From IMG/VR virus record IMGVR_UViG_3300045922_000530, positions 1 to 20,631 of that record: DNA of 20,631 bases; one strand, given 5' to 3'. How positions within the stretch are numbered: position 1 is the stretch's first letter; every line of letters begins with the position of its first letter. The notes below the pieces were generated by a model, which searched no databases, was not told where the DNA came from, and worked only from the letters and a program-made list of their open reading frames with translations. Source of the stretch: a virus. Of this stretch, positions 4,565 to 18,162 are shown piece by piece. The translations under genes and the position numbers were made by a program.

Positions 4565-5220
4565 TGTCCAAAAGCAATGCCATCTAACTTATAGGCAACA
4601 TCATCGTCAATAATGCTAAACTCATTATTAAAAGGAGGCGCTTCATTCTCAAGCATCATATCCGCTAACCTATCAGCCGCCTTTTGCTCATAAAATGACA
4701 TCTTGTTATTATCCCCATCCGCCTCATATAATCTTGCCAAAACCCAATAGACAATAAACATCGGTTTTGACATCTCGGGAATATCTGTTGCATTAACTAA
4801 CGAAGTAGGTGATTTGTAGTAGTAAAAAGTATATGTATCGCCAACGGTTGGTGTTGGATTAACATTAATGATATAAGAGCCATAAGAGCCTGTTATCCAA
4901 AACATTTTTTTTGACGGATTAGTTCTTAAAATATTCATCGCATCATCTACTTTCTTATAAACATAATAGTTGCTTGAAATTTTAAGAAGTGATGAGATTG
5001 AGACAAAATCTGCTGGTGCTGAAATGGTTGCTCCCGAAATGGTTCCTGTTGCAGTTTTATATAGTTGTTGCCATTTAACATTTTCAGTCTCTGCCCATTC
5101 TAATATTGCATCATTAACAAGTCCTAATCTTACATCATAATCATCAGATCCTGATGTTGGATAATCGGTGTTGTTCTCGTAAAGACGATGGATTGTTTTT
5201 AAAATTTTATCTAATGTCAT
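4561..5220 (-). CDS. Head-to-tail adaptor / connector protein
   Basis: 219 aa from the ATG at 5220. A TTG-initiated version begins four codons earlier, inside the conserved post-terminator junction, and is less likely. The N-terminal helices (MTLDKILKTIHRLYENNTDY, DDYDVRLGLVNDAILEWAE) precede a beta-rich middle (YGSYIINVNPTPTVGDTYTFYYYKSP) and a C-terminal helix pair (MFIVYWVLARLYEADGDNNK, ADRLADMMLENE). This arrangement is typical of podoviral and siphoviral head-completion/adaptor proteins that dock on the portal. It precedes and overlaps the hub gene. It is the first gene after the terminator at 5231-5260, so its transcription must pass that hairpin. No SD is present. Confidence 0.6.
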   Translation of the reverse strand: MTLDKILKTIHRLYENNTDYPTSGSDDYDVRLGLVNDAILEWAETENVKWQQLYKTATGTISGATISAPADFVSISSLLKISSNYYVYKKVDDAMNILRTNPSKKMFWITGSYGSYIINVNPTPTVGDTYTFYYYKSPTSLVNATDIPEMSKPMFIVYWVLARLYEADGDNNKMSFYEQKAADRLADMMLENEAPPFNNEFSIIDDDVAYKLDGIAFGQ

Positions 5221-5223
5221 ATT

Positions 5224-5238
5224 TTTATACAAAAAAAA
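5224..5238 (-). repeat. 15-nt junction identical to that upstream of the portal gene
   Basis: The minus-strand string TTTTTTTTGTATAAA covers the U-tract of the terminator and the first bases after it, just before the adaptor start (AATATG follows). The same 15 nt occur at 18067-18081 before the portal gene, also followed by an SD-less ATG. Eight of the bases are just the U-tract, so the informative shared part is GTATAAA. Confidence 0.6.
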
Positions 5239-5260
5239 GACACCCCTTTTTGAGGTGTCT
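5231..5260 (-). terminator. Intrinsic terminator in the leader of the tail module (site B)
   Basis: The minus-strand RNA forms a GACACCTC / GGGGTGTC stem of 8 bp (one G-U pair, extendable to 9 by an outer A-U) with an AAAAA loop, followed by eight U. It sits between the promoter at 5301-5329 and the adaptor gene, so it acts on transcripts from that promoter and on read-through from the ejection module. Confidence 0.85.
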
Positions 5261-5261
5261 G

Positions 5262-5283
5262 TAGGGAAGAGTGAACTTCCCTA
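5262..5283 (-). other. Upstream stem-loop of leader B
   Basis: A perfect 8-bp stem TAGGGAAG / CTTCCCTA with a 6-nt loop lies between the promoter and the terminator. Flanking GTCT and AGAC could extend the stem, but AGAC shares bases with the foot of the terminator stem, so the extended form and the full terminator would partly compete. No U-run follows this hairpin, so it is not a terminator itself. Confidence 0.6.
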
Positions 5284-5300
5284 AAAGACTAACTAATAAA

Positions 5301-5329
5301 ATTCTAAACCTTTTCCTCTATTTTGTCAA
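5301..5329 (-). promoter_or_regulatory. Sigma70-type promoter, site B
   Basis: TTGACA at 5324-5329 and TAGAAT at 5301-5306 are separated by exactly 17 nt. The -35 box overlaps the last codons of the 1289-aa gene. Transcription would start near 5294 and meet the terminator about 60 nt later. Two further sites with the same spacing and position at module boundaries support it. Confidence 0.75.
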
Positions 5330-8300
5330 TAACAAAATCTTCTTGGCTAACTTGCTGTAATTGGTTGGTTTCCTTTTTGCTATCTTAATGGTAGGTGGTT
5401 TTAGCCTGTATCCTCTTGATATTTTGCCTGTTGATATTCGAACCTTTGGTATTCTAACACCACCGCCAACACGAAGAGCGGGGGGTTTGCCGATTTTAAT
5501 CTTTTTTGACTTTTCCGATGTTTTTATTTTTACTTTTCCCCCCTCTTTTTGAGTGCCTTTTATTGATTTTAAGTATCGCTTTTCGCTCTCGGTTATTATA
5601 CCCTCATCATAAAGTTCATCAATCAAATTATCAGTTAAAAGTTTTTTTGATGAGATAATGCTTTTTTTTCTAAACAACGCTAAAGCCTCAATCATTTTTT
5701 GTCTATCTTCAATTCCTTTAATTGAGGCTAATATAAATTCTTTTCTCGCATCACTATCTTGATTTGATAGGTAATTATATAACCCCTCTTCAAAATCAAG
5801 CCCCATACTCCTTACATTTTGCTCAATTTTGGTTCTTACATCTTCTCTGTCGGCTTTAATATACAACTCAAAAAGATGATTGGCTTTTTTATAACTTGCC
5901 TCAAGTTTAGCCCTTTCTCTCAAAGCTTCAAGCGGTGTAGTTGGTTCTTTTTTGGTTTGAGATTGTAAAGCAAGTTGTAATTCTTGTGGTGATAGTTCTT
6001 CACCTTCCTCCATTTTTTTCTTTAATTGATTGATGTAGCGGGTGGTTTGTCTTTCTTGCTGTCTTTCTTGAAGAAGTTGGTTATAAATACCGCTTGTATC
6101 TTTTTCTATTCCGATACTGTAAGGCAAAAATTGATTAATAAGCAATCGTCTTGCTGGTTCTCCCGTTGGTTCTTGATAATATTCTTTTATTGTTTTCGTT
6201 AAGAACGGGATGCCTGAGATAAACTGCTCTCCAAATGTTTTTGGTTTTCTGTAGATATCATCAACGAAGTTTGAAATCCAACGCAAAAGCGAGTTGTATG
6301 GGATAACCTGTTGAGCGGTATATCCTAAGTTTCTTATCACATTCCAATCAATATCACCCTGCAATGTTCTTACAAAACCCCCTAATCCTGACATTGGTGT
6401 TGATTGAGACCAAAAATATAATACCGAACCAATTGTTTTTGTTAACTTTTTCCAATCCTCCTCACTTAAGGCATCAGGTGATTGTTCATATTGATATTTG
6501 ACAGCAGCAGGAAGAAGCAATGATAAAGCATAAGGACCAAAATAAGCAGCTGGTATCCATTTACCATTAATCTCTATTGAGAATGGTTTTTTTCCTGATG
6601 CATAAAAGTATTTCTTCTCCTCAGGATCGGTAGGTGGTGCCCAAGTAACTCTGTTTTGTAAGGCGAGTGTTGTCCCAATTGATGTTAAAACCGAGCCTAT
6701 TAATGCTTTTGATAAAACCATTCTTTTATCTTCTGCCCCGATTAGATTAGCAAAACCAATAGGCGAATATTCAACCTGAGCAGCGGCAAAATTAAATGGA
6801 GTTCTGATAAAAGGAACAAACCATCTAATTGGTTTAAATTTTCTTCCTGCAAACTCAAGCATTTCTCCCATTGCTCTTAAACTATCCGAAACTATTCCAT
6901 ACCCTCTTGCCGACATTGGTTTTCTGAAAAGAAACTCCTCGGCCAACTTTGCCGCCTCTTCTTCTTTCATACCGGTAGCAATAAGCGATGGCTTTATTAT
7001 GTTTTGAAAAAACATATCCGCCGACTCCATTAAATCTGTTGATATCCTTAACGCTCTTGGTATTCTTTGATATTTTGCCTCTGAAATTATTGTCTCTGTT
7101 TTTGACAAATCGGTTGGTGTTTTCCCAAGAAAAGTATCAATAAAAGCATCAAGTCCTCTTCCAACATTCTTAATCGCATTAACCTCGTATTCTAATGCCT
7201 GTTTTGGTTTTCCTGAGGTTGCTAATGTCAGTGGTAAATTAAAATAGGTTTGGAATAAATTAGAGAAGAAGTTTTTCAGATGCGTTAATGGGCCAGAGAG
7301 CATATTATTGAAGCGATAAACATCAAGAATCTCGCTTACTCCAAAAGGTATTTTTTCTGAAATTATTTTAAGTGCCTGTCTTGAATAATAGCCTTTTGTC
7401 TGATCATCGGGTGCAGTCATTGCCTTTTGCATTAAATCATAAATCATCTTTTTTTCATCATTGGTTAAGTTAAAATCAACTTTTTTAAATATCTTTCCTG
7501 TAAATGATTTTTTATAGTTCTCTTCCGCCTGTTTTAATAACTTATCGGCATAATTCAACATTCCTTCAGGAGTAAGTCTTGACCAGATAGCAAAACTCTG
7601 AACTCCTCTTCCTAATCTTGTTCCTTTTTTTGCCATCTCCTCCACTATCTTAAATCCCTCATCCCATCGCCCCTCAGAAAAGGCTTTTCTTGCTAATAAA
7701 TCACCTAATGCTACCGCTTTTTCATAACTTACTTTATCGTCAAAAAATGCTTTTGTGGCTTTTTCAACCCCCAAATCATCAATTATCTTTGATGCTTCTT
7801 TTAATAATTCGGGATTTGATTTAGGTTGGTAATATCTCTCAGCACTTTCTTTTGTTTTTCCTAATATTTCCTCAGGCGTTGATTTTGCTTTTTCTACTGT
7901 CTGAAAGAATTGTCTTTCTTTAAGAGGTGGCTGGGGGACTGTTTCTGGGGCTTTTGGAGGCTTCATTCCTCCCTCTCCCCCACCGCCCATTTCTCCGATA
8001 GGGGAGAGCGGGGAAGTGGTTTCTTGAGGTTTGATTTTGATGGTGGGTTTTGGTTGATCTCCCCCAATCCTTACAAATCCCGCTTGTGCCTCCATTCTGT
8101 CTTGTGGAAACATTCTCTTCCACGCCTGCCATACATACTCTGGCAAACTATCCGCTGATTTTGCTTTCTCTGGTTTTATTCCTACCACCTCATAATGAGG
8201 TCTTGTATCAAGATTTAATTTATTCCCTGCTTTTATTAAAAAGTCTTTTGTTTCTTTTTTTAATCTATTCCAATCCTCAATATCACCACCACTTGCAACT

Positions 8301-9187
8301 AATGCTCCTATTGCAAATGATGTTAATCTGTCTAATGATGTTGGGTCTCGTCTGTCAAGTCTTGCAAGAAATTCATCTTCCGTCACATTCCCAAGACCAC
8401 CCACCGCTCTTGCTAAAAGTTGTTTTGCTAACGGATTATTGACAAAAGTTTTAGATTTGCCAACAAGACCTGATATTAATGGATTAGTGTATTGAAAAAC
8501 CGCACTCGCCTGAATAGTTGCCCCCATTCCTTTTCCAGCCTCCTCAAAAAAATCTCTTCCTTGTGCTTTTCCTATTCCACCCTGTATTAGTCCCCCCAAT
8601 CCCACCATCAATGGATTTCTTAAAGCAAAACCCGCCCCAAGTATTGATTGACCTACTTTAATTCCGCTACTTATTGTTTTTTCTTTTTGTGCTTGAAGTG
8701 GTTTTTCAAACTTTTCAAATTCCCTTGATTGTTGATTGTAAATATCTTGCGCTCTTTTGAATAACTCTCTTGATTTTTGCGGGTCTGTTTTGGCTAATTT
8801 TATTGCCATCTGTTGGTATCTGTCGGCTATCTCAAATTGTTTTTTTTGAGTATCAAGCATTCGATTAACCTCAATATTGCTTGCTATTGCACCACCAAGT
8901 CCTTTACCAAGCTCATATCCGGGCTTAATTGCCACTTCATTAATAAAGGTGGGGATTGTTTTTGTTAGGGTGTTATTAACTAAATTACCGGTAAATTGAA
9001 TTGGCCTAAATGCAGGTTCAAACTTAGTGATTGCCTGTGCTTTTTGAGGATTAGCCTGAGCCCACGAGGAGATCGCCTCTCTTATTGGTTCAATCGTTGG
9101 TTTTCCTTGTCTTATAAATCCTTGATTATCCGAGATAGCGGATTGAATATCCTCTAATTTTTTTTTCAAAACTGATAGGATGTTCAT
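5318..9187 (-). CDS. Giant internal virion / ejection protein with polyvalent-protein features
   Basis: 1289 aa, the largest gene in the window. The N-terminal third is helical with Gly/Ala-rich, weakly hydrophobic stretches (about 175-235, SILGAGFALRNPLMVGLGG). A Pro/Gly-rich linker follows (about 385-425, containing GGGGEGG). Around residue 626 the segment LSGPLTHLKNFFSNLFQTYF resembles domains of phage large polyvalent proteins (LPD38-like pattern of 'N-LSGP-TH-N--SN'). Residues about 820-900 hold membrane-compatible helices (SKALIGSVLTSIGTTLALQ, AAYFGPYALSLLLPAAVKY). The region from about 1060 is charged and coiled, and the last ~90 residues are very basic (KVKIKTSEKSKKIKIGKPPA and repeats of RI/KI). 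Such proteins are packaged in the capsid and injected with the DNA. It has no visible catalytic motif. No SD precedes the ATG. Confidence 0.6.
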   Translation of the reverse strand: MNILSVLKKKLEDIQSAISDNQGFIRQGKPTIEPIREAISSWAQANPQKAQAITKFEPAFRPIQFTGNLVNNTLTKTIPTFINEVAIKPGYELGKGLGGAIASNIEVNRMLDTQKKQFEIADRYQQMAIKLAKTDPQKSRELFKRAQDIYNQQSREFEKFEKPLQAQKEKTISSGIKVGQSILGAGFALRNPLMVGLGGLIQGGIGKAQGRDFFEEAGKGMGATIQASAVFQYTNPLISGLVGKSKTFVNNPLAKQLLARAVGGLGNVTEDEFLARLDRRDPTSLDRLTSFAIGALVASGGDIEDWNRLKKETKDFLIKAGNKLNLDTRPHYEVVGIKPEKAKSADSLPEYVWQAWKRMFPQDRMEAQAGFVRIGGDQPKPTIKIKPQETTSPLSPIGEMGGGGEGGMKPPKAPETVPQPPLKERQFFQTVEKAKSTPEEILGKTKESAERYYQPKSNPELLKEASKIIDDLGVEKATKAFFDDKVSYEKAVALGDLLARKAFSEGRWDEGFKIVEEMAKKGTRLGRGVQSFAIWSRLTPEGMLNYADKLLKQAEENYKKSFTGKIFKKVDFNLTNDEKKMIYDLMQKAMTAPDDQTKGYYSRQALKIISEKIPFGVSEILDVYRFNNMLSGPLTHLKNFFSNLFQTYFNLPLTLATSGKPKQALEYEVNAIKNVGRGLDAFIDTFLGKTPTDLSKTETIISEAKYQRIPRALRISTDLMESADMFFQNIIKPSLIATGMKEEEAAKLAEEFLFRKPMSARGYGIVSDSLRAMGEMLEFAGRKFKPIRWFVPFIRTPFNFAAAQVEYSPIGFANLIGAEDKRMVLSKALIGSVLTSIGTTLALQNRVTWAPPTDPEEKKYFYASGKKPFSIEINGKWIPAAYFGPYALSLLLPAAVKYQYEQSPDALSEEDWKKLTKTIGSVLYFWSQSTPMSGLGGFVRTLQGDIDWNVIRNLGYTAQQVIPYNSLLRWISNFVDDIYRKPKTFGEQFISGIPFLTKTIKEYYQEPTGEPARRLLINQFLPYSIGIEKDTSGIYNQLLQERQQERQTTRYINQLKKKMEEGEELSPQELQLALQSQTKKEPTTPLEALRERAKLEASYKKANHLFELYIKADREDVRTKIEQNVRSMGLDFEEGLYNYLSNQDSDARKEFILASIKGIEDRQKMIEALALFRKKSIISSKKLLTDNLIDELYDEGIITESEKRYLKSIKGTQKEGGKVKIKTSEKSKKIKIGKPPALRVGGGVRIPKVRISTGKISRGYRLKPPTIKIAKRKPTNYSKLAKKILLLTK

Positions 9188-9203
9188 TTATCATATTAAA
9201 AAC

Positions 9204-10520
9204 TTAAAGTCCCAACTGTTGTCGGCGTTTTTTTGCTAAATCAAGCATTGAGCCATAGATATCTTCACCCCATCCTGCGCTTGTTCCGCCTTGTAATCCA
9301 CCAAGACCCTGCAAAGCTTGATAGGTTAACTCTTGTGGCGAGAAGTTTCCCATTTGCCCAAGTTGAATTTTGTAATCTTGCAACTGTGCAATTCTTTGCA
9401 AAGCCCAGTTTTCAAGCATTTGACTTCTTTGCACAGCCTCTTGTCTTATGGCGTTTGCGGTATTGATGGCGTTTGCTAATAAACTTTGGTCAAGTGCGTT
9501 TAATGCATCAAGTTTTCTCCAAGACGCATTAGCCTTTTCCGTATCAATCCATTGCTTTAATTGTCTATATTTATCAGCAACATCTTGCATTTTCTGAGTA
9601 AAGTCTTGCTCTAACTGATTTTTGGCTAAATCATAGGTGGATTTAACATCTACTTCTTTTTGAGCAATTTGATTAAGATTATCTAATGCTCCTCTTGCCA
9701 CCTGTGCGCTTGATCTTGCCGCCTGCTTTCCCAAAACCGCTGGTAAAACCTCTTGAGTTGCCGATGACCATCCTGCCCCCATTAATCCCGCTCTCATCTG
9801 TGAGGCTTTCAAAAGTTGTCTTAATTGAGATAGGATATCATTACTTGCCTGTTGCTGTTTTTGCTCAACATCTTGCCTTGCTGTTTGTAATTTCTCCAAT
9901 GAGCCTTGTTTTGCAATATCAAGTCCTTGAATTCCTTGCTGTTTTGCTGTTTCAAGTCGTTGGATATCCTCCTGTTGCCATTGAGGATATAATCCTGCCA
10001 TTTCATCAAGTCGTCTTACAAAATCTGAATAAGCCGCCTCAATATTTCCTCTTATCTGATCGGCTGATGGTCCAGACGACTCTGGTCTAATTAGATAATA
10101 ACCAAAGGGCAACTTGTTTACATCCCATCCTCTTGCTAATGCCTCGCCTTCCGTAATTCCTCTTGTTCCGCCGCCACCACCACCTGTATTAGTGTTAGTG
10201 TTAGTATTGGTATTGGTGTTGGTATTAGTAGTGGGTTGGGTTGTTGTTTGTTGTGTTGTTGAGCGATTAGTAAATTGAACCGAAGAAGTGGGATAAACTT
10301 GACCAGTATCAAACAACGTATAGCCACCAGGTACACTCATAATAGGCTGTGCCGATGAAGATAACATTGGTCCTGTTGTTCCCGGTGATAAATAAGGATT
10401 TCCCCCTTTTGACGGTGGTTGATATGGTGTTGGGACAGGATAAAGATAAGGATAATTTGTTGCCATAATAATATTTTTGTGAACTATTAATAAAAACAGG
10501 ATTATAAAAATCCTTTTCAT
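9204..10520 (-). CDS. Coiled-coil virion protein with Asn-Thr and poly-Gly linker (ejection or internal protein)
   Basis: 438 aa from the first ATG, which has a good AAGGGA SD. A second possible start is ATG at 10466 (MATNYPYLYPVPTPYQPPSK). The longer form begins with MKRIFIILFLLIV, a signal-like hydrophobic segment that is unusual for a virion protein. Residues about 20-90 are Pro/Tyr/Ser/Thr-rich. Residues about 96-117 are an (Asn-Thr)7 run followed by six Gly. From about residue 145 the chain is helical and Gln/Ala-rich (LETAKQQGIQGLDIAKQGSL and similar 11-residue-like repeats), with a Gly-rich break near 243 (MRAGLMGAGWSSA) and a second one near the C-terminus. Such Gln/Ala coiled coils are common in podoviral internal proteins. 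It sits just before the 1289-aa gene, suggesting both belong to the ejection apparatus. Confidence 0.55.
   Translation of the reverse strand: MKRIFIILFLLIVHKNIIMATNYPYLYPVPTPYQPPSKGGNPYLSPGTTGPMLSSSAQPIMSVPGGYTLFDTGQVYPTSSVQFTNRSTTQQTTTQPTTNTNTNTNTNTNTNTGGGGGGTRGITEGEALARGWDVNKLPFGYYLIRPESSGPSADQIRGNIEAAYSDFVRRLDEMAGLYPQWQQEDIQRLETAKQQGIQGLDIAKQGSLEKLQTARQDVEQKQQQASNDILSQLRQLLKASQMRAGLMGAGWSSATQEVLPAVLGKQAARSSAQVARGALDNLNQIAQKEVDVKSTYDLAKNQLEQDFTQKMQDVADKYRQLKQWIDTEKANASWRKLDALNALDQSLLANAINTANAIRQEAVQRSQMLENWALQRIAQLQDYKIQLGQMGNFSPQELTYQALQGLGGLQGGTSAGWGEDIYGSMLDLAKKRRQQLGL
10167..10232 (-). repeat. In-frame Asn-Thr dipeptide repeat followed by Gly6
   Basis: Seven Asn-Thr units (about 10185-10232) followed by six Gly codons (10167-10184) within the 438-aa virion protein. 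At DNA level it is a degenerate hexamer array; synonymous codons are mixed (ACA, ACC, ACT; AAT, AAC), so the amino-acid pattern is more regular than the DNA. It probably forms a flexible linker. Confidence 0.8.
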
Positions 10521-10532
10521 TTTTATCCCTTT

Positions 10533-10730
10533 TTATCCTAATTTTTCCAATTCTTTCAATGCTATCTTTGTGAAGCCGATTACTTTGGATATCTTTTTGT
10601 TTCCTTCCTGCAAAGTTGCTTTTTCAACCGCTCTGTAAAAGTTAATCGCTTGCCTTAATGCTTCAGCGACTAATTCTTTTCCTTGCAGTTTTTTTTCATT
10701 GGCTTCTTGCTTTTTTTCCTCTTTTGCCAT
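10533..10730 (-). CDS. Small charged helical protein, unknown function
   Basis: 65 aa, starting MAKEEKKQEANEKKLQGKEL. It is Lys/Glu-rich and predicted wholly helical, with an amphipathic part at about 20-45 (VAEALRQAINFYRAVEKATL). It has no Cys and no TM. It lies between the basic 62-aa gene and the 438-aa virion protein, with gaps of 33 and 12 nt, in the transcript that starts after terminator C. AGGA lies about 13 nt before the ATG, a weak SD. Family not recognised; a minor internal or assembly protein is possible from position alone. Confidence 0.6.
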   Translation of the reverse strand: MAKEEKKQEANEKKLQGKELVAEALRQAINFYRAVEKATLQEGNKKISKVIGFTKIALKELEKLG

Positions 10731-10763
10731 AGTTTCTTTTTTTTCCTGAACTTTTAACGATTT

Positions 10764-10952
10764 TTAGCCCTTTAGATGCTTTTTTACTTTCTCCCAGAAA
10801 ATTTTTCCAGCAATTTTTTCTCCTATTTTTTTGCTATGGTATTTTCTACCAGCTTGCATTGCTATTTTCTCAAAATTGCCAGTCTTGTAATTTCTTCCTA
10901 ACTTTCTAACCATTGCTCTTCCTCTCGCTCCTTTTGGTTTAAGTTTTGCCAT
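10764..10952 (-). CDS. Small highly basic protein, unknown function
   Basis: 62 aa starting MAKLKPKGARGRAMVRKLGR. It has about twenty Lys/Arg against only four Glu and no Asp. Two short Gly-containing turns separate predicted helices (NFEKIAMQAGRKYHSKKIGE, KIFWEKVKKHLKG). The charge would suit DNA binding or packaging inside the head, but no fold is recognised. It is the first gene after the promoter-terminator leader C and the first of the ejection module, with AAAGAAG a few bases before the ATG as a modest SD. Confidence 0.6.
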   Translation of the reverse strand: MAKLKPKGARGRAMVRKLGRNYKTGNFEKIAMQAGRKYHSKKIGEKIAGKIFWEKVKKHLKG

Positions 10953-10970
10953 ATCTTCTTTTTAACTTAT

Positions 10971-11028
10971 AAAAAAACCGCCCTCTTAAGATAACACAAG
11001 CATTACTGTGCCATCGTAAGAAGGCGGT
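10971..11028 (-). terminator. Long-stem intrinsic terminator in the leader of the ejection module (site C)
   Basis: On the minus strand ACCGCC (11028-11023) pairs with GGCGGT (10982-10977), and the inner arms continue pairing for about 23 positions with one mismatch and several G-U pairs around a short loop. A run of U follows directly (10971-10977). Two tiny frames lie within the hairpin, ATG-GCA-CAG-TAA and an overlapping ATG with five sense codons. It lies downstream of the promoter at 11045-11073 and upstream of the 62-aa gene. Confidence 0.85.
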
Positions 11029-11044
11029 CAAGCCTCTGATAATA

Positions 11045-11073
11045 AATCTATCATATTATATTTTTCTTGTCAA
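11045..11073 (-). promoter_or_regulatory. Sigma70-type promoter, site C
   Basis: TTGACA (11068-11073) and TAGATT (11045-11050) are spaced 17 nt apart, beginning just after the TAG of the small glycosyltransferase gene. A start near 11038 would give a transcript of about 67 nt if it stops at the following terminator. Same design as sites A and B. Confidence 0.7.
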
Positions 11074-11076
11074 GGG

Positions 11077-11631
11077 CTAATTATGTTCCCACAATACTTC
11101 ATCAACCTTTCCCCATTTAGCCTGATTTTTAACCAAATCCTCAATAAAAAGCCCATCGGCTTGATAGGAGCGGTAATTATAACCAATCTTTTTTGCAAAC
11201 TCCGTTTTTGCGATAAATCCGCCTGATGAGATATGATTGACTTGAGGCTGGCAGTTTAAAATCCCACCAAACTTATTATTCTTTTCATTGCATATTACAA
11301 AATCCAAGTTTTCATTTTCCGCCTTTTCAATCAGTTTCTCAAAAAAAGTAGGATAATATCTATCGTCGCAGTTTAGAAAACAAGTATATTTTTCATTTGA
11401 CACGCTTAAAATCTTTGCCCGTTTTTCATGTCCAAAGTCATTGTAGTTTTTGTCTATCAAATAGCCCGCCCATTTCAGATCAAAACTTAAAACTCTTTCT
11501 ATATACTCTTTGATACTGTCTGATACTGTTAGAAAACAAACAAAGTCTTTATAGGTTTGATTTTTCAAATCAGCCAATAGATTAAAAATCGCCTCATTGT
11601 TTTGATGGCTTGTTATCCCCACGAACAGCAT
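11077..11631 (-). CDS. Small GT-A (family 2-like) glycosyltransferase
   Basis: 184 aa, at the short end for a GT2 domain. It begins MLFVGITSHQNNEAIFNLL and contains LNCDDRYYPTFFEKLIEKA. The Cys-Asp-Asp element sits where the metal- and nucleotide-sugar-binding DXD motif of GT-A enzymes lies. A later HISSGGFIAKTEFAKKIGY matches the acceptor-side region of GT2 enzymes. It lacks the usual C-terminal extension. It overlaps the nucleotidyltransferase gene by 38 nt, and its stop is followed directly by promoter C. With its two neighbours it probably transfers sugars to a virion protein or a cell-surface glycan; the substrate is unknown. Confidence 0.65.
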   Translation of the reverse strand: MLFVGITSHQNNEAIFNLLADLKNQTYKDFVCFLTVSDSIKEYIERVLSFDLKWAGYLIDKNYNDFGHEKRAKILSVSNEKYTCFLNCDDRYYPTFFEKLIEKAENENLDFVICNEKNNKFGGILNCQPQVNHISSGGFIAKTEFAKKIGYNYRSYQADGLFIEDLVKNQAKWGKVDEVLWEHN

Positions 11632-12052
11632 TTTTAATCATCGTTGAACTGATAAAGTCGGAGTAAGGAACATAGATTAAGACGATATCGTTTTTATCAA
11701 GCCACTCTTGAGTAAATCCCATTTGTTTATAGTAGTCTTTTTTTGCCCAATCGCTTCCTATCACAATAAAATCAGGTTTAATCTTTGCGATTGTTATTTT
11801 ACTATCCTCTCCCCCTTCATTCTCAACCACCAAATCAACTAAGCCCGTCTTGTAAAGCATTTTTTCTCTTGTTTTGTAATCAAAAACTGTCTTTTTTCCT
11901 TTAAATTTTTCAACAAACCAATCAGGATTTAGGGCAACCACCACTCTTCCATCATCTCCTGCAATTTTTCGGCAAAACTGCAAAAACCTAATATGACCAG
12001 CGTGTAAGATATCAAACGTTCCCCCTGTGTAAACGGTTCTTCCCATAAACAT
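11594..12052 (-). CDS. Cytidylyltransferase-like nucleotidyltransferase (HxGH family)
   Basis: 152 aa from the ATG at 12052; another ATG lies two codons later. VYTGGTFDILHAGHIRFL carries the HxGH nucleotide-binding signature, and VPYSDFISSTMIK near the C-terminus matches the ISSTxIK-type motif of the same superfamily. It also has the central IKPDFIVIGSDWAKKDYY segment. Family members join CTP or ATP to a phosphorylated sugar or alcohol (glycerol-3-phosphate in TagD, heptose-1-phosphate in the HldE C-terminal domain). The exact substrate cannot be read. It overlaps the GT-B gene before it and the GT-A gene after it and has no SD, so it is probably translated by coupling. Its role is likely to make the activated donor for the flanking transferases. 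Confidence 0.75.
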   Translation of the reverse strand: MFMGRTVYTGGTFDILHAGHIRFLQFCRKIAGDDGRVVVALNPDWFVEKFKGKKTVFDYKTREKMLYKTGLVDLVVENEGGEDSKITIAKIKPDFIVIGSDWAKKDYYKQMGFTQEWLDKNDIVLIYVPYSDFISSTMIKNAVRGDNKPSKQ

Positions 12053-13160
12053 CAACTAAATTTTTAATCATTTCAACCCAATCTTTGGCTATTTCCTCCA
12101 AATCTCGGTATTTGAAAACCCAATCATAGGCTTTTTGAGCCACCAATCGTCTTTTTAAGGGATTTAATATCAAAAACTCAAGTTTTTTTTCAAATTCATC
12201 GGTGGTTTCGTATAAATAACCTGTCTCGCCCTCAATTATTTCCTCGTTATAAGGCAATGAATTATATGCCAAAGTTGCAGTTTTGGTGGCAGAGTATTCA
12301 TAAAACTTAATTGAACTTTTGTATTGGTTAAAGACGTGATCTGTTAACGGGCAAAGACCAATATCCAAATTCAGGCAAGCCTGCCTATATCCGTGTCCGT
12401 CGGCATTTATCCAGCCGTAATGATGCAATCTTTCCTTTGGTATCCATTTCTCAACCACGCCAAACCACTGTCCGATATGGTAATAGTGAACGTGAGGATA
12501 TCGCTCCATTATTTTTTTTAATGATGGAAGAATTGAGTATAAATCTTCAAAATGTGATGCACCACCCGCCCAACCAATTTTTACTATCTTATCGTCTTTT
12601 TTGCAATCAAGGCAAGGGAAGTATTTTTTTGATAGGCAGTTTGGGATAACAACAACATTATCATCTCGTCCAGTTGTGCTTTTAAGATATTCTTTCATCT
12701 TAAAAGTCGTGGTTGTAATAACGGTTGCTTTTTTTAATGTCGCTTTCATCTTTTCAAGCCTTTTTTTATTCTCCTCAACTGAAAATCCCGCCACCCCATC
12801 TTTCCAAAGCCAAGTGCCGTCAGATAGTCTAACATTTTTTGTTCCATAAACCTCATAAAGATTAGAGAAAGGATTTGGCTCGTCATAATAGTCGTCAATA
12901 TCAATAATCAAAGGCTTATTAGGTGAAATATTAATCTCGGATAAAATTTCATAAGAAGAGGGAGCGGCTAAATGGCAAAGAAAGACATCGGCTTTGCTAA
13001 TCACCTCCTGTAATTGCTCTTGTGATAATCTAATATCAAGATAGGCGACATCAAGCAGTTTATTTTCTCTTGCATATCGAGCAAACTGCTCTATCCTATA
13101 CCAAAAAACACCATTATATGCTTGTGGTTCAAGCACCAAAACCTTTATCTTTTCCATCAT
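12012..13160 (-). CDS. GT-B fold glycosyltransferase (GT4-like)
   Basis: 382 aa from the ATG at 13160. The N-terminal half holds IKVLVLEPQAYNGVFWYRIEQF (start of a Rossmann domain, shown here as the region about 5-27), then PLIIDIDDYYDEPNPF. The C-terminal domain begins near residue 193 with VKIGWAGGASHFEDL. NLDIGLCPLTDHVFNQYKSS and then KFYEYSATKTATLAY mark the donor-nucleotide site of GT4-type enzymes, where the Glu of the EYSA-like element usually contacts the sugar. EEIIEGETGYLY fits the conserved 'G-TG-L' segment. Its start overlaps the 102-aa gene before it by about 30 nt and its end overlaps the nucleotidyltransferase gene. Product and acceptor are unknown; virion or host-surface glycosylation is inferred from context. 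Confidence 0.75.
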   Translation of the reverse strand: MMEKIKVLVLEPQAYNGVFWYRIEQFARYARENKLLDVAYLDIRLSQEQLQEVISKADVFLCHLAAPSSYEILSEINISPNKPLIIDIDDYYDEPNPFSNLYEVYGTKNVRLSDGTWLWKDGVAGFSVEENKKRLEKMKATLKKATVITTTTFKMKEYLKSTTGRDDNVVVIPNCLSKKYFPCLDCKKDDKIVKIGWAGGASHFEDLYSILPSLKKIMERYPHVHYYHIGQWFGVVEKWIPKERLHHYGWINADGHGYRQACLNLDIGLCPLTDHVFNQYKSSIKFYEYSATKTATLAYNSLPYNEEIIEGETGYLYETTDEFEKKLEFLILNPLKRRLVAQKAYDWVFKYRDLEEIAKDWVEMIKNLVDVYGKNRLHRGNV

Positions 13161-13437
13161 CAATTACCTTCCACTCGGGAAACTTATCAAAAAAATGCTT
13201 GTCTTTGTAATAGTCTGGTCCATAAACCCGAGTAAAGAATTGATCTACCTCATAAGGCATTGAAGCAATCTTTCGCCACACCTTTGATTTTGAGCCTTTA
13301 TCATAAATACCCTGCTTTTTGGCCTCAAGCACATATTGTTTAACCGGTGAGTCCCAAGTTAAAAAGTGAGTAATTAACTCCTGTCTTCTTTTTTTATTGA
13401 TATCGTCCGCAATTTTTTTAATCGCCTCATCAAACAT
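13129..13437 (-). CDS. Small conserved-looking head-region protein, unknown function
   Basis: 102 aa starting MFDEAIKKIADDINKKRRQE. It has two helical parts and then an aromatic-rich segment (DQFFTRVYGPDYYKDKHFFD). The stop of the preceding gene overlaps the start as ATGTTTGA. The C-terminus runs about 30 nt into the GT-B gene. Its position, two genes after the capsid gene, would allow a head-completion or capsid-accessory role, but no family is recognised. Confidence 0.6.
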   Translation of the reverse strand: MFDEAIKKIADDINKKRRQELITHFLTWDSPVKQYVLEAKKQGIYDKGSKSKVWRKIASMPYEVDQFFTRVYGPDYYKDKHFFDKFPEWKVIDDGKDKGFGA

Positions 13438-13831
13438 TTTTTAGCCTTTCCACCAAACTTTTAATCTGACTTTCAATTTTAAGATACTGATAAACTCTTG
13501 ATAACGACGGTTTTCCTCCCAATTTATACTGCACCTCCTTTATCACCATTGCTTTATTTTTTTGTCTGTTTAGACCCTGCTCTGTCAATAACTTGTCAAT
13601 TTTTTGAAGATTTGATAATTCGTCTTTATCATCAACTCTTATTCCTAAATATCTTTTGTAGGTGATAAGATGTAATGCCTCATCAGTTAGATTTTCCTCA
13701 TCGTTTTTAATATCTGCCGCTTCTTTGACTTTTGATAAAAACTCATCATCCATTTTTGGAAATCCTTCTTTAACCTGCTCGGAATTTTTTTCTTTTACTT
13801 TTGTTTCGTTTTCTGTTTTTATGTTGTCCAT
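13430..13831 (-). CDS. Small charged protein downstream of capsid gene, unknown function
   Basis: 133 aa. The first 30 residues are Lys/Glu/Asn-rich and probably disordered. The rest is helical (EALHLITYKRYLGIRVDDKD, LQKIDKLLTEQGLNRQKNKA, SLSRVYQYLKIESQIKSLVE). The last part has a helix-turn-helix look (KPSLSRVYQYLKI) without a convincing match. The annotated ATG has no SD and lies just after a very strong hairpin. An alternative ATG at 13753 (MDDEFLSKV) has an AAGGA about nine bases upstream and may be the true start. Confidence 0.55.
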   Translation of the reverse strand: MDNIKTENETKVKEKNSEQVKEGFPKMDDEFLSKVKEAADIKNDEENLTDEALHLITYKRYLGIRVDDKDELSNLQKIDKLLTEQGLNRQKNKAMVIKEVQYKLGGKPSLSRVYQYLKIESQIKSLVERLKNV

Positions 13832-13843
13832 AAAAAATTTGCA

Positions 13844-13881
13844 AGAGCGAGGGGAGGGGAAGCCCCCTCCCCCAACGCTCT
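13844..13881 (-). terminator. Very stable G+C-rich hairpin after the capsid gene (terminator or 3'-end stabiliser)
   Basis: AGAGCG / CGCTCT (6 bp) flanks an inner 9-bp stem of GGGGAGGGG with its complement, closed by a 4-nt loop. It begins 10 nt after the capsid stop. On the minus strand a T6 run follows only after TTGCAAA, so it is not a canonical terminator. It could be a partial terminator or a block that protects the 3' end of the capsid message. It stands out sharply from the A+T-rich surroundings. Confidence 0.65.
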
Positions 13882-13891
13882 ATAAACTTTT

Positions 13892-14785
13892 TTAACTGGT
13901 TGTTAACTGAGTAATTTTTCCTGAACCTGCTTGATTTCTTGCTTCAAGTGTCAACTCGGTTTCAATTACAGCACGAGTTGCAGATCCAACTTTAGCAACA
14001 TCAACTTTTTTGGTTGGTCTAAGAGTTGCTACTTTCCAAAGGTCATTTTGGGTGATAGCAACTTGAGAAGCAGGCATAAACCTGTCTAAGACCACTTTGA
14101 TGCGCCCAAAGTCGGAATCATAAACATCAATTCCAGCAACAAGTTTCTTTTCATCAGCCTCAACAAATTTAGTTGAGGAAGCGGTGAAGCTTGAAATCTT
14201 TCTTTTCTGGAAACCGTTCACCCAAGCAGTATCCGGTCTTCCACCGGCATTCCAGATTGACTGCAAAGCGTTGTTGAACATTGTTTCAGTCAGTGCTTCA
14301 TCACCTGTTCCTGTTCCTGTTTCAACATTGGTTGTAATCCAAGCCAAAACGCCTTTTAGTCGGCGAGCAGTTCCAGAGGCACCAGAATTACCAGTCCCAT
14401 TCACCAGAGCATACTCAATATCTCGGGCATGTTCTTTTAACTTTTTAGCCATTTGATAAGCAAATTCATCTTCAATACCAGCAGTATCAACTGCTCTTTG
14501 GGTATCTGATACTTCAACTGGGGTAACAAAGATTTGGGTATAGTTACCCACTCTTGTTCTTGGTGCTGGTTTGCTAAAGTTATAATCAGCGCCCTCGATA
14601 TTGGCGTTATCGGCAGCGTTTGCCAAAGAATCGGTCAACCATTCGTGCAAAACTCCTTTTGCTTTCACTTTACCAAAGGTCGAATACATCGGTGTTTCCT
14701 CTGGTGAGATATTGGTGATGATATCAGATAAATCTTCTCTGTTACCAACTGCATCATAGGTTAATAATGCGCTTGCTTGTGCCAT
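13892..14785 (-). CDS. Major capsid protein, DUF5309 / SU10-type
   Basis: 297 aa. The N-terminus (GNREDLSDIITNISPEETPM, then KAKGVLHEWLTDSL and EGADY) is the signature of the DUF5309 (phage SU10 major capsid protein) family, which has the HK97 fold. The rest carries expected elements: VGNYTQIFVTPVEVSDTQRA, then EFAYQMAKKLKEHARDIEYA (backbone helix), a Gly/Thr-rich loop, and C-terminal WKVATLRPTKKVDVAKVGSA. The capsid is built from many copies in the cytoplasm around the scaffold. It follows the scaffold gene and has a GGGGGTG SD about ten bases before the ATG, which suits high expression. Confidence 0.85.
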   Translation of the reverse strand: MAQASALLTYDAVGNREDLSDIITNISPEETPMYSTFGKVKAKGVLHEWLTDSLANAADNANIEGADYNFSKPAPRTRVGNYTQIFVTPVEVSDTQRAVDTAGIEDEFAYQMAKKLKEHARDIEYALVNGTGNSGASGTARRLKGVLAWITTNVETGTGTGDEALTETMFNNALQSIWNAGGRPDTAWVNGFQKRKISSFTASSTKFVEADEKKLVAGIDVYDSDFGRIKVVLDRFMPASQVAITQNDLWKVATLRPTKKVDVAKVGSATRAVIETELTLEARNQAGSGKITQLTTS

Positions 14786-14815
14786 GTTCTTTTTTCACCC
14801 CCTTTCGCTAAACTT

Positions 14816-15679
14816 TTACTTTCTAAACAGCCTTCTTTTAAGAAACTTTGCCCAAGCCTCATCAGACCCTTCGGAACGAGCCTGCTGTAGCAAGGCTTGC
14901 TCTTCTTGATCGACAGCCTTAGGCTTCGTAACTGATGGGGGGATTGATGACTCTTGAGACTGCGATTGCAGTTGCGAGAGTGTTTTTGCTCCCTCAACTG
15001 TTGCTCTTTTTTCCAATATCCTTTTTACCCTTGCATATACTTCTGATGGTTTTAGGGTGGGAAAAAAGTCTTCTTGTCCCGTAAGCGGGCTAACCGCAAA
15101 ATTGGCAATTCTGTATTGTTCTTCAATAAATTGCCGTAAATCGGGATCGTTTTTGACTTCTTCATCACTCATCACCTTTTCCCAATCAGCGATATGCTCT
15201 TGCAAGGCTTGCTCATATCTTCTTTTATTCTCAACAGTTGAAACTGCTTTCATTACCACCGCCTGTTCTCGTTGAGCAATTCTTCGCTCAAGTTCGGCGG
15301 GGTCAATCTCGCTCCCATACTCCTCAGGCTTTATAAGCGGCTCATTAAAAGCGCTCATCAGCTCAGGCGGAATTTGCGATGTGCTTTCCGCCTTTGCTTT
15401 TAGCCTTTGGATAAGAGATGAGATTTTCTGCCTATCCTCATCGGTTTTGGCAGTTTGCAGCTTCTCCTGCAACCTCTCAATCCGTCTCTCAAGTCGTGAC
15501 TCCCCTTTTTCGGAAGGCTGTTCTTGAGAACTTTTAATGTTCTCTGATACCTCGTTTGAGGTATCAGTATGTCCTTGTGAGGTTTCCCCCACTTGCTCCG
15601 CCCCGACGGAAGAGGATTGGACCTCCTCTTGAACAGGCGATGTATCAGCCTGCTCTACAGGGATTTTTTGATCATCCAT
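14816..15679 (-). CDS. Scaffold protein
   Basis: 287 aa from the ATG at 15679, chosen for its AAGGA SD; a GTG 13 codons earlier is possible but poorly placed. The first ~60 residues are acidic, Ser/Gln-rich and probably disordered. A long charged helix follows (SRLERRIERLQEKLQTAKTD, then DPAELERRIAQREQAVVMKA). Residues after about 220 are Gln/Ser-rich, and the last ten (KFLKRRLFRK) are strongly basic. An acidic coiled body with a basic C-terminal helix that touches the coat protein is the typical scaffold design. It lies immediately before the capsid gene, 30 nt upstream. Confidence 0.75.
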   Translation of the reverse strand: MDDQKIPVEQADTSPVQEEVQSSSVGAEQVGETSQGHTDTSNEVSENIKSSQEQPSEKGESRLERRIERLQEKLQTAKTDEDRQKISSLIQRLKAKAESTSQIPPELMSAFNEPLIKPEEYGSEIDPAELERRIAQREQAVVMKAVSTVENKRRYEQALQEHIADWEKVMSDEEVKNDPDLRQFIEEQYRIANFAVSPLTGQEDFFPTLKPSEVYARVKRILEKRATVEGAKTLSQLQSQSQESSIPPSVTKPKAVDQEEQALLQQARSEGSDEAWAKFLKRRLFRK

Positions 15680-15683
15680 AAAA

Positions 15684-15765
15684 TCCTTACAACCCTTGTG
15701 GGCGATAACTGTTAACACTATCCTTAAAGGATAGGCAACTTAGCAAACCTTTATTTGCTAAATTG
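15684..15765 (-). promoter_or_regulatory. Inverted-repeat cluster in the scaffold leader (possible translational control)
   Basis: A 12-bp stem (15736-15747 with 15754-15765, one G-U) contains the stop codon of the upstream gene in its loop. Next comes the near-perfect palindrome CTATCC-TTAAA-GGATAG at 15718-15734, then TGTTAACA at 15710-15717. The TATCCTT segment could also pair with the scaffold SD (AAGGA, 15684-15688) or with an AAAGGATA just inside the previous gene, giving alternative folds. No U-run or promoter boxes are seen. Confidence 0.45.
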
Positions 15766-15990
15766 TTTATCCTTTAATATCGGCATTCCGTTTTTGTCAA
15801 TTCCAACTAATATCTTATTTGGCTTTATAAAAAATCCGTGTCTAAACTCGCAACTTTTACAGTAAATATAGTTTCCTTTTTGCCTCCACTCGTGCTTTTT
15901 CTTTTTTGCCTCCTCAATCGCTTTTGCTCTTATCTCCTCAATGTTAACTTCAAACGATAATTCATCATTTTTGCTGCTGTTGTTGTTCAT
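15751..15990 (-). CDS. Small unknown protein with CxxC pair
   Basis: 79 aa starting MNNNSSKNDELSFEVNIEEI. A Lys-rich helix (RAKAIEEAKKKKHEWRQKGN) precedes YIYCKSCEFRHGFFIKPNKI and VGIDKNGMPIL. Only one Cys-x-x-Cys pair plus a nearby His is present, so it may bind metal with partners or be a degenerate ribbon. The start codon lies inside the last codons of the preceding 119-aa gene (26-nt overlap), where one CAA-rich stretch is read as Gln in one frame and Asn/Ser in the other. It precedes the scaffold gene. Function unknown. Confidence 0.6.
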   Translation of the reverse strand: MNNNSSKNDELSFEVNIEEIRAKAIEEAKKKKHEWRQKGNYIYCKSCEFRHGFFIKPNKILVGIDKNGMPILKDKQFSK

Positions 15991-16324
15991 TGAACATTTT
16001 TGGCAAATTTTTTATCTCGTTTAAATACTTGATGATTGCCGACACTATCAAATACTTAAACCCAACCGTCTCAACCGTCTCATCGCCTGATATAATCTCA
16101 CTCCCCGATAACGGGTCAATCATCTGCTTTAAAAAATCAATTCTCTGCTCAATCATCTTCTCAATCAACTCCCATCTTGGATCGGCTGATAAAGTTGCTA
16201 TTTGCTCTTGTTCCTCTTGCGTTTTTTCAAAGTCCGATTTCTCTTCCACCACCTTCTTGAATACCGCCTGAAATTGCGGTATTGGGTTGTCCGATTGGAT
16301 TTTCTGCTTGCTGTTGCTGACCAT
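15965..16324 (-). CDS. Small acidic helical protein overlapping portal gene, unknown function
   Basis: 119 aa. It is helical and acidic (EEKSDFEKTQEEQEQIATLS), with SADPRWELIEKMIEQRIDFL resembling other small phage proteins between portal and scaffold, and ends in a Gln run. The ATG is inside the portal gene, giving a 98-nt overlap. A GTG about 60 nt later (VEEKSDF) with AGAAGG just upstream could be the true start and would shorten the overlap. Family not recognised. Confidence 0.55.
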   Translation of the reverse strand: MVSNSKQKIQSDNPIPQFQAVFKKVVEEKSDFEKTQEEQEQIATLSADPRWELIEKMIEQRIDFLKQMIDPLSGSEIISGDETVETVGFKYLIVSAIIKYLNEIKNLPKMFNEQQQQQK

Positions 16325-18062
16325 AGCCTATTTGCATCAATAAATTTTTAATATCATCAGGCGCATTGGCAATTACATTTTTTAACTCGGGATTTTCAAA
16401 ATTAACCTCGCCCCCTTGCTGATTTTCTGCCCCCTCAACGATTTTATCCCAATCCTGAACCCCGCTTGAAATAATCCAGCGCTTAAATAATTCGCCAAAA
16501 TTAATTGCTACATCACCCAAAACTACTTTTCCACTCTTCATTATTTGATCCATTGCTCCTGGTATCTTAAAGATTAATGACAAAATCTGTGTTAACGTCT
16601 CATTTTCCAACATCTCATCTTTTTTGTAGGTTGAACCAGCATCAATGAAAAAACGACAGTTAACATTTTTTGTCTCATCGGGTTTTACTATCAACTGCCC
16701 ATATTTTCCGCTTTCAAACATCTCAACTACATCAGGATTAATCTCAGCAATCGCTTTTAAGTCTTGCTCGGATAAATAAACTTTAATCGGCTTTTCTTGT
16801 TTTTTGGTAATTAGGTCAACAAATCTATCAATCACTTGCTCCAGAGCCCGCTCCATCATAAATCTATCCCAATTATCTCTTGCTGACTCTCTCATCTGAA
16901 GCATTGCTAATGCTCGTGGTGTTTTCCCCATTCCTGGATCGGTTTCTTTTGAAACAGTGGTATCGGTTGTCCCCATTGCATTTAAAATTGCAGCATTTAA
17001 GAAAGAATAGGTTTGCGTGAATGTGTTTAATCCTAATGGTGATAACGGCAACTGCGCTACTGCTCCTTGTCCTTTCACCAACCATTTCTGCCCCGCCCCA
17101 TACTGAAGGGTTCGCAAAACCACCAATTGCGGATTAATCATTAACGGAGGAAAGATTGACATCTTTGCCCCGTCTAAATAAAGATTAATCAACGAATTAA
17201 TCGCATACTGTAATGTTTTTAATCGCTCAATCTCGCCAAGCCCAATTATTCTATCCAAAAGTGGGAAGCAATGTTTTAAAACTACCGGTAGTTTGCTATT
17301 CTTTTGTGGATTTTCAATCTCACGGAGAATAACTTTATGGGTTGGTGAAAAAGTTGTCCACTTGTCTTTTTCATACTTTGTTATTAACTCATACATCTCC
17401 TCGCCACTTCCCTGCTGTTCATATTTTGTCTCAACATACGACTTATACTCTTTGGTTGTTTTTTCTTTTGCCTCAAGCAATTTATCGATATTTTTCCATA
17501 CCTTTTTGTCTCTTGTCTCAAGCCAGCCTTTGGTGACATATGAGCGAACAAAGACATAGTCGCTGTCATTGTAGTTTTGAATTCCAGGCTGAAAGATTAG
17601 GTTTCGCATTGGGATAAGGTAAAAGTCTGGCCCAACATAATCATCCTTTACCACCCAATCCACCAAGACACCAAAAGAGCCGTAAACATTGCTGTATAAA
17701 TCCCATAATCTTGTCTTTGTCAAGAAGTCAAACTGAACATTGGCATTGGGGATAACATAGTCTTTCAATAAGATGTTAAGAATGATATTTTTTCCTCTAT
17801 CCTCTTTTGTTAGCGCCTGCACTTTTCCTGTTGGATTTTGTGCCATTACCCGGGCGGATCGTTCAATAAGATAGGTTGATAGTTTTGGATCATATACTTT
17901 TGATTTAGTGGTTGCGGTTTCACTATCAGGGGTTTTTCCCAATAAAACCATCTCTTTTTCTTCCCATTCCGAGCGAAGTTGCGACAAGCTATTCTCACCT
18001 TTTTTAAATTCGTCAAGAAGTTGAGTGACGATGACGTCCTGTTTGTATTTTTTGTCTACCAT
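16227..18062 (-). CDS. Portal protein (P22-type podoviral portal)
   Basis: 611 aa. The N-terminal helices and KSKVYDPKLSTYLIERSARV precede the wing and clip region (RLWDLYSNVYGSFGVLVDWV). The stem/crown part holds KTLQYAINSLINLYLDGAKM, then TTDTTVSKETDPGMGKTPRA and LQMRESARDNWDRFM, typical for podoviral portals. The C-terminus is Gln/Gly-rich (QQQQAENPIGQPN) and may reach into the head or be disposable. As the dodecameric ring at one capsid vertex it docks terminase and the tail. It is the first gene after the leader A terminator, has no SD, and begins directly after the conserved GTATAAA junction. It ends in TGA, which argues against TGA recoding. Confidence 0.8.
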   Translation of the reverse strand: MVDKKYKQDVIVTQLLDEFKKGENSLSQLRSEWEEKEMVLLGKTPDSETATTKSKVYDPKLSTYLIERSARVMAQNPTGKVQALTKEDRGKNIILNILLKDYVIPNANVQFDFLTKTRLWDLYSNVYGSFGVLVDWVVKDDYVGPDFYLIPMRNLIFQPGIQNYNDSDYVFVRSYVTKGWLETRDKKVWKNIDKLLEAKEKTTKEYKSYVETKYEQQGSGEEMYELITKYEKDKWTTFSPTHKVILREIENPQKNSKLPVVLKHCFPLLDRIIGLGEIERLKTLQYAINSLINLYLDGAKMSIFPPLMINPQLVVLRTLQYGAGQKWLVKGQGAVAQLPLSPLGLNTFTQTYSFLNAAILNAMGTTDTTVSKETDPGMGKTPRALAMLQMRESARDNWDRFMMERALEQVIDRFVDLITKKQEKPIKVYLSEQDLKAIAEINPDVVEMFESGKYGQLIVKPDETKNVNCRFFIDAGSTYKKDEMLENETLTQILSLIFKIPGAMDQIMKSGKVVLGDVAINFGELFKRWIISSGVQDWDKIVEGAENQQGGEVNFENPELKNVIANAPDDIKNLLMQIGYGQQQQAENPIGQPNTAISGGIQEGGGREIGL

Positions 18063-18066
18063 ATTG

Positions 18067-18081
18067 TTTATACAAAAAAAA
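18067..18081 (-). repeat. 15-nt junction identical to that upstream of the adaptor gene
   Basis: TTTTTTTTGTATAAA on the minus strand, spanning the U-tract of terminator A and the bases up to five nt before the portal ATG. Identical to 5224-5238. Confidence 0.6.
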
Positions 18082-18100
18082 CCAGCCGTTAATGGCTGGC
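18074..18100 (-). terminator. Intrinsic terminator in the leader of the head module (site A)
   Basis: On the minus strand CCAGCC pairs with GGCTGG (18082-18099), with a possible outer G-U, a 6-nt loop and eight U directly after. It lies between promoter A and the portal gene. Confidence 0.85.
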
Positions 18101-18102
18101 AG

Positions 18103-18121
18103 GCTACAGTCCTCCTGTAGC
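18103..18121 (-). other. Upstream stem-loop of leader A with AGGAGGA presented in the loop
   Basis: A perfect 7-bp stem GCTACAG / CTGTAGC closes the loop GAGGA, so AGGAGGA, a near-ideal anti-SD-binding sequence, lies across the stem top and loop. No start codon follows at a usable distance. Position and size match the upstream stem-loop of leader B. Confidence 0.6.
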
Positions 18122-18133
18122 AAACCTATACTT

Positions 18134-18162
18134 ACTCTATCAAATGATTTCTTTTTTGTCAA
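18134..18162 (-). promoter_or_regulatory. Sigma70-type promoter, site A
   Basis: TTGACA (18157-18162) and TAGAGT (18134-18139) with a 17-nt spacer, starting four bases after the stop of the 72-aa ORF. A start near 18126 gives about 50 nt of RNA to the end of the terminator U-tract. Confidence 0.7.

Follow-up and report, generated by a model that had tools for sequence, protein, structure and literature searches.

Why a promoter should be followed by a transcription terminator before the first gene that it could serve is the question raised by three sites in the DNA of an uncultured tailed phage. The window, that is the whole 20.6-kb stretch that was analysed, has all of its main genes on the minus strand, and these run from terminase through portal, capsid (DUF5309 type), glycosyltransferase-like genes and ejection proteins to adaptor and tail. 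A sequence-only reading had noted that the promoter stands first and the terminator second at three boundaries between gene blocks, and had offered three phage small RNAs, attenuation or an antiterminator as explanations. Our analysis favours, with a probability of roughly 0.55, the view that each site is a terminator-gated late leader, in which a constitutive host promoter would feed a gate, and antitermination specific to infection would open it through the leader.

Promoters, terminators and gene blocks of the window

The features at the three boundaries are listed below.

18134..18162, minus strand: portal-leader promoter, TTGACA-17-TAGAGT; a TG precedes the -10 box; predicted start near 18127
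18103..18121, minus strand: portal leader hairpin 1, GCTACAG-GAGGA-CTGTAGC, from folding; MFE below that of 98.5% of shuffles
18074..18100, minus strand: portal-leader terminator, GC-rich hairpin GCCAGCC-ATTAAC-GGCTGGT followed by T8; ends 12 nt before the portal ATG
16227..18062, minus strand: portal / head-tail connector gene, opens the head block (phrog_332 and phrog_1216; alignment with relatives)
11045..11073, minus strand: ejection-block promoter, TTGACA-17-TAGATT; predicted start near 11038
10971..11029, minus strand: ejection-leader terminator, long hairpin (MFE -33.5 kcal/mol) followed by T7 at 10977-10971
10764..10952, minus strand: 62-aa basic protein, opens the ejection block (ORF)
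5318..10520, minus strand: ejection block (phrog_6651; protein clusters), with a 438-aa protein at 9204-10520 and an internal virion protein of 1289 aa at 5318-9187
5301..5329, minus strand: adaptor-leader promoter, TTGACA-17-TAGAAT; overlaps the upstream gene's stop codon; predicted start near 5294
5262..5283, minus strand: adaptor leader hairpin 1, AGGGAAG-TTCACT-CTTCCCT, from folding, with a boxA-like AGTCTTTT before it
5231..5260, minus strand: adaptor-leader terminator, AGACACCTC-AAAAA-GGGGTGTCT followed by T8
4561..5220, minus strand: adaptor (head/tail) gene, opens the tail block (phrog_2941; alignment with relatives)

The three promoters that had been described are present with exact boxes, and TTGACA-N17-TAGANT occurs nowhere else in the window, while a mean of 0.01 occurrences was expected from 100 dinucleotide shuffles. 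Each was also found to begin at a stop codon or a few bases away from one: the -35 box lies 4 nt past the upstream stop codon at two sites, and at the third it overlaps the last codons of the upstream gene, with TAG 3 nt after the box. Each promoter is followed, as the sequence-only reading had it, by an intrinsic terminator with a strong hairpin and T7-8, and then by the first gene of the next block. The distance from the start of the -35 box to the start of the hairpin is 62, 44 and 69 nt for the portal, ejection and adaptor leaders, and the predicted leader RNAs are 54, 69 and 64 nt long, respectively. The ejection-leader terminator was overlooked by a simple terminator scan for no other reason than the loop limit of 8 used in that scan. 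A separate small hairpin stands ahead of the terminator in the first and third leaders, and the second consists of a single long hairpin. The GAGGA loop of the portal-leader hairpin could be read as boxB-like, but no weight was put on this reading, the other two leaders of the window being without it. No element common to the three leaders of the window was detectable (mean z -0.29), and Rfam gave nothing credible in the window.

Matches to phrog families support the gene assignments made earlier (portal-like/head-tail connector, internal virion protein and head/tail adaptor). For the adaptor, ATG 5220 is the most likely start codon, not the TTG at 5232 with which the ORF begins. Homologues of the 62-aa basic protein were found in G010 and G011 only. 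The portal protein of the window had no match among 50,697 phage records, and the group therefore seems to be known from metagenomes only. Directly after the portal gene lies a gene for a 79-aa CxxC...H protein (Zn-ribbon; 15751-15990, minus strand), which is kept in 31 of 41 contigs. Within the head block, a very stable hairpin follows the capsid gene (13832-13891, minus strand) and leads through T6 to the ATG with which the following gene starts; there is no promoter close to this hairpin, which is possibly an additional terminator.

Conservation of the units in related phages

Relatives were gathered via capsid, terminase, portal and adaptor, and their contigs were read in pieces. This yielded 93 non-redundant units of promoter, terminator and gene start in 51 related records, at two to seven per phage, in which the order is repeated with hairpin sequences that differ. 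The spacing between the promoter boxes is 17 in 58 units and 18 in 26, and TTGACA is found in 60. The TAGANT form of the -10 box, although exact in the window, proved to be a local one, as relatives have the more general TANNNT with TG before it. When the units were aligned on the -10 box, this TG step was seen and, at the expected start, a T followed by a purine; because neither had been selected for, they support real housekeeping promoters. T7 is the commonest T tract (53/93). An ATG follows the T7 immediately in 26 of the 93 units, and a Shine-Dalgarno-like tetramer stands between in only 9.

The order of the elements was examined by counting promoters in stretches of equal width on the two sides of intergenic terminators. 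For the 84 terminators of 22 contigs, a promoter of at least 10/12 was found upstream of 28 and downstream of 2, and a threshold of 11/12 left 9 upstream versus 0 downstream. The corresponding numbers for 107 terminators in 19 further contigs were 48 versus 6 and, at the stricter 11/12, 22 versus 1. Pooled, a promoter of at least 10/12 lies upstream of 76 and downstream of 8 of the 191 terminators. The inverted order at block boundaries is real and conserved across relatives. The sequence-only reading would have been contradicted by relatives that keep the terminators and lose the promoter boxes; most relatives keep both.

The terminators are found at particular gene starts. In the assembled contigs, they precede the portal gene in 21 of 31 cases, the ejection gene in 13 of 25 and the adaptor gene in 18 of 26, in agreement with the blocks of the window, and the tail genes of about 288 aa in 6 of 24. 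No terminator was found in these contigs at the starts of TerL (0/30), Zn-ribbon (0/30), long tail gene (0/25), capsid (0/13 and 0/16) or glycosyltransferase (0/32) genes. In a separate, larger set of portal loci, some of them near-duplicates, 53 of 71 carry the terminator; about a third of the portals in the group are without the unit. Far relatives found by capsid alone (L012-L087) gave no convincing unit, just low-scoring chance matches, which places the feature in a narrower group. Between the promoter-terminator leader and the adaptor gene, a small HNH-like reading frame seems to be inserted at L282:13070-13260 (G037) and in L240 and L241; the close relatives G036 and G038 are without it there.

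The early genes of the same phages have promoters without a terminator. Near-consensus early promoters with an ATG 3-14 nt past the -10 box were observed in G009/L126, G012/L129, G022, G024, G027 and G034; in six contigs, such leaderless promoters number 16 versus about 1 per shuffle. The early mRNAs are, apparently, leaderless. The G010-G012 subgroup is without terminator leaders and has, at the portal, ejection and adaptor starts, a leaderless promoter of another kind, whose -35 region contains AAACCTCT, followed by N12 and TATAAT. The arrangement TTGAAAACCTCT-N12-TATAAT-N6-9-ATG was seen at late genes of G010/L127 near 3204, of G011/L128 near 2383, 11975 and 14591, and of G012/L129 near 3641 (minus strand). 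This common promoter suggests a dedicated late activator. Since it stands at the same starts as the terminator leaders, these starts may be late control points for which two solutions exist.

Elements in the leader RNA

The leaders of one phage resemble each other more than they resemble those of other phages (mean z 1.24 within versus 0.15 between phages), with a p value of 4e-8 that is optimistic because the pairs are not independent. The promoter spacers show no such difference (0.02 within versus 0.01 between phages), and no motif between the -35 and -10 boxes is conserved beyond the extended -10 TG. In one subgroup, the leaders contain AUCUUU and then a hairpin whose loop is conserved and whose stem covaries; in this stem, 92.9% of cells pair on seven sequences and at most 55% do so when the alignment is slid. 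The covariance model was trained on seven leader rows picked by eye, and the search with the model is therefore the test that counts. On 1.17 Mb, every match with E<0.001 fell in a leader, including four sites outside the training rows, of which one has the same sequence as a row. A match at E 3.9, although weak, turned out to be another leader, with the stem ACCGA/UCGGU. For the 12 distinct model matches, the alignment of which was fitted to the model and is so biased towards it, 12 cells of the stem were changed on both sides versus 3.4 when shuffled (0/500). Covariation in the hairpins, which the sequence-only reading had proposed as a check, was seen in the leader stem of this subgroup. 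G004 and G006 have a linear motif only and no leader hairpin. A boxA-like TCTT is moderately enriched (21/93 leaders versus 10.2 expected). In the terminator hairpins of G002/L115 near 4517 and 7317 and of G010/L127 near 7680, a common internal loop, GAAA opposite GAGUA, was noticed by eye; it resembles the sarcin-ricin (loop E) motif.

Folding in context gave the terminator helix a probability above 0.9 in 87 of 92 leaders. Because of this dominance, switching by alternative pairing is unlikely, and so is attenuation by competing RNA structures, one of the options first considered; riboswitch-like attenuation was rejected on the same folding result and the missing Rfam match in the window. 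Taken together, the likeness of the leaders within a phage, the covarying hairpin and the dominant terminator helix point to an external factor that recognises the leader RNA. For the window phage, this recognition step rests on its relatives, because its own three leaders share no visible element.

Proposed mechanism and alternative explanations

In the mechanism that we propose, the host housekeeping RNA polymerase would initiate at the near-consensus promoter and, by default, halt at the intrinsic terminator after about 55-70 nt; the same terminator would halt transcription arriving from the upstream block. At the late stage, an antitermination activity specific to the phage or to infection would recognise the promoter-proximal leader RNA, the polymerase would then read through, and the portal, ejection and adaptor blocks would open together, each from its own promoter. 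If the terminators act, they block local and upstream transcription alike, and something must allow passage. We infer functioning terminators with regulated read-through, and their release by a factor acting in trans, for which a protein seems likelier than RNA alone. Among the control options named at the outset, gating by an antiterminator fits best, as a conjecture from sequence.

Alternatively, the sites could be static insulators or attenuators, whose leaky terminators end the upstream transcript, pass a fixed fraction of polymerases and set the levels of the blocks without a regulated factor. This explanation is possible but rather doubtful. It requires no additional gene, all data on the architecture are compatible with it, and a conserved regulator was looked for by clustering and none was found; however, it leaves the likeness of the leaders of one phage between promoter and terminator, and the covarying hairpin confined to leaders, unexplained, and the terminators appear strong, with T7 as the commonest tract. 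The hairpin could also be a processing element, in which a nuclease cuts the hairpin and U tract before the AUG, so that the upstream RNA would keep a protected 3' end and the late mRNA would be almost leaderless. A start codon right after a stable hairpin without a Shine-Dalgarno sequence is puzzling for translation; cleavage, like the leaky unregulated terminator, is a serious rival. It would suit a host that translates leaderless mRNAs, and the early genes do look leaderless. Phage T7 uses RNase III sites in a way comparable to the proposed cutting at the U tract. Nevertheless, processing is unlikely, since a canonical U tract of 6-8 marks termination and is unnecessary for cutting, and since the promoter just upstream and the phage-specific leader elements would be left unexplained.

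Each unit is equipped with a promoter and a terminator of its own and is predicted to fold well, as would be expected if it were a stand-alone gene for a trans-acting RNA of 54-69 nt. However, the RNA sequence varies between phages, while the position at portal, ejection and adaptor and the architecture are kept, and there is no Rfam match; the small RNAs of the sequence-only reading are therefore improbable as the main role. Finally, the arrangement might have arisen by chance, or by compaction, with the terminator of the upstream block and the promoter of the next overlapping for want of space. Promoters that overlap or abut upstream stop codons do save space, but both ideas are strongly disfavoured by the positions of terminators per gene start and have very little probability left: chance was rejected from the shuffles, and simple compaction from the order bias and from the early genes, which have compact leaderless promoters without a terminator in the same phages.

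Search for the antitermination factor

The lambda-type Q families PF03589 and PF06530 were absent from 25 records, some of them possibly partial, while the controls matched; other Q types exist. The NusG domain PF02357 was likewise absent from 25 records, with matches in 10 of 14 controls. A search for T7-type RNA polymerase was uninformative, as no control genome matched. Protein clustering gave no early gene that is conserved across the group or that occurs along with the units, and the Zn-ribbon protein after the portal is present also in contigs without units. Family models would hardly detect N-like genes, because N proteins are so short and diverge so far.

Comparison with known systems

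In phages that encode no polymerase, the switch to late genes usually depends on a new sigma factor or activator, or on one antiterminator site. Here, in contrast, gates of a single kind appear to serve several late blocks in a whole group. The closest likeness is to lambda pR'-tR', which has a constitutive host promoter, a short leader and a terminator before the late genes and is thus a promoter-proximal gate; lambda Q binds qut in the promoter and lets the polymerase pass the terminator (PMC6266700). A terminator shortly after the promoter and ahead of late structural genes is found here too. In lambda, however, there is one site and here there are two to seven per phage, and a factor site between the -35 and -10 boxes, as for Q, is not indicated, the spacers not being alike within a phage. 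Because the spacers are not shared, specificity seems to lie in the leader, unlike with lambda Q. As a Q protein was not found either, the units cannot be filed as Q type; nor can they be filed as NusG type or as a riboswitch.

The leaders of one subgroup resemble lambda N/nut in having a UCUU box directly before a small hairpin with a covarying stem. This boxA-then-hairpin arrangement is clear in that subgroup; other leaders have no hairpin, and it is absent as a common element in the window. In contrast to nut, the site occupies the short interval from promoter to terminator at every late block, and no N-like gene was identified. The put RNA of phage HK022 consists of two adjacent hairpins near the promoter, and an adjacent hairpin pair is also found here, but the second hairpin is the terminator itself, and the sequences differ; put is named as a case of RNA-only antitermination (PMC8955417). 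The nearest case of promoter-near loading with terminators that stop all other polymerases is conAn of pLS20-type conjugative plasmids, in which antitermination is loaded near the promoter and only those polymerases pass the operon terminators (PMC8955417); it differs in having a single loading site per operon of more than 30 kb, whereas there is one gate per block here. In the SAS/ESAS of cluster K mycobacteriophages, many phage start codons are preceded by an inverted repeat that is conserved (PMC3203893); the ESAS repeats share sequence and, unlike our units, are not described as U-tract terminators at late block starts. A literature search of partial coverage gave no description of the same architecture in phages.

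The best reading of these comparisons is a working mode most like lambda pR'-tR' multiplied over the late blocks, with what would be a nut-like leader in at least one subgroup. More tentatively, antitermination in these phages might form a new class, separate from N, Q, put and conAn. A factor specific to the phage would then have co-evolved with the leader RNA element, and release of the terminator just before the start codon would open each late block of this uncultured group. The leaders are compact and testable, about 100 bp containing promoter, recognition element and terminator. The factor, if found, would add to the tools for antitermination, and phages that cannot be cultured can be approached through the leader elements.

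Capsid relatives and host

A genome scan with the capsid gave a single close match, in a MAG labelled Desulfococcaceae, which is not enough to name a host. The matching gene, 60% identical, lies on the 114-kb contig L146 (JAQYVU010000004.1) of this MAG, near a VirB4/TraD-like ATPase, and the late region of L146 is without such leaders. Between the capsid and ejection blocks, G022 and G023 carry a long insert (for instance L253:14273-20000) that is conserved in about ten contigs and consists of host-like sugar and methyltransferase-type genes, including pieces resembling transketolase.
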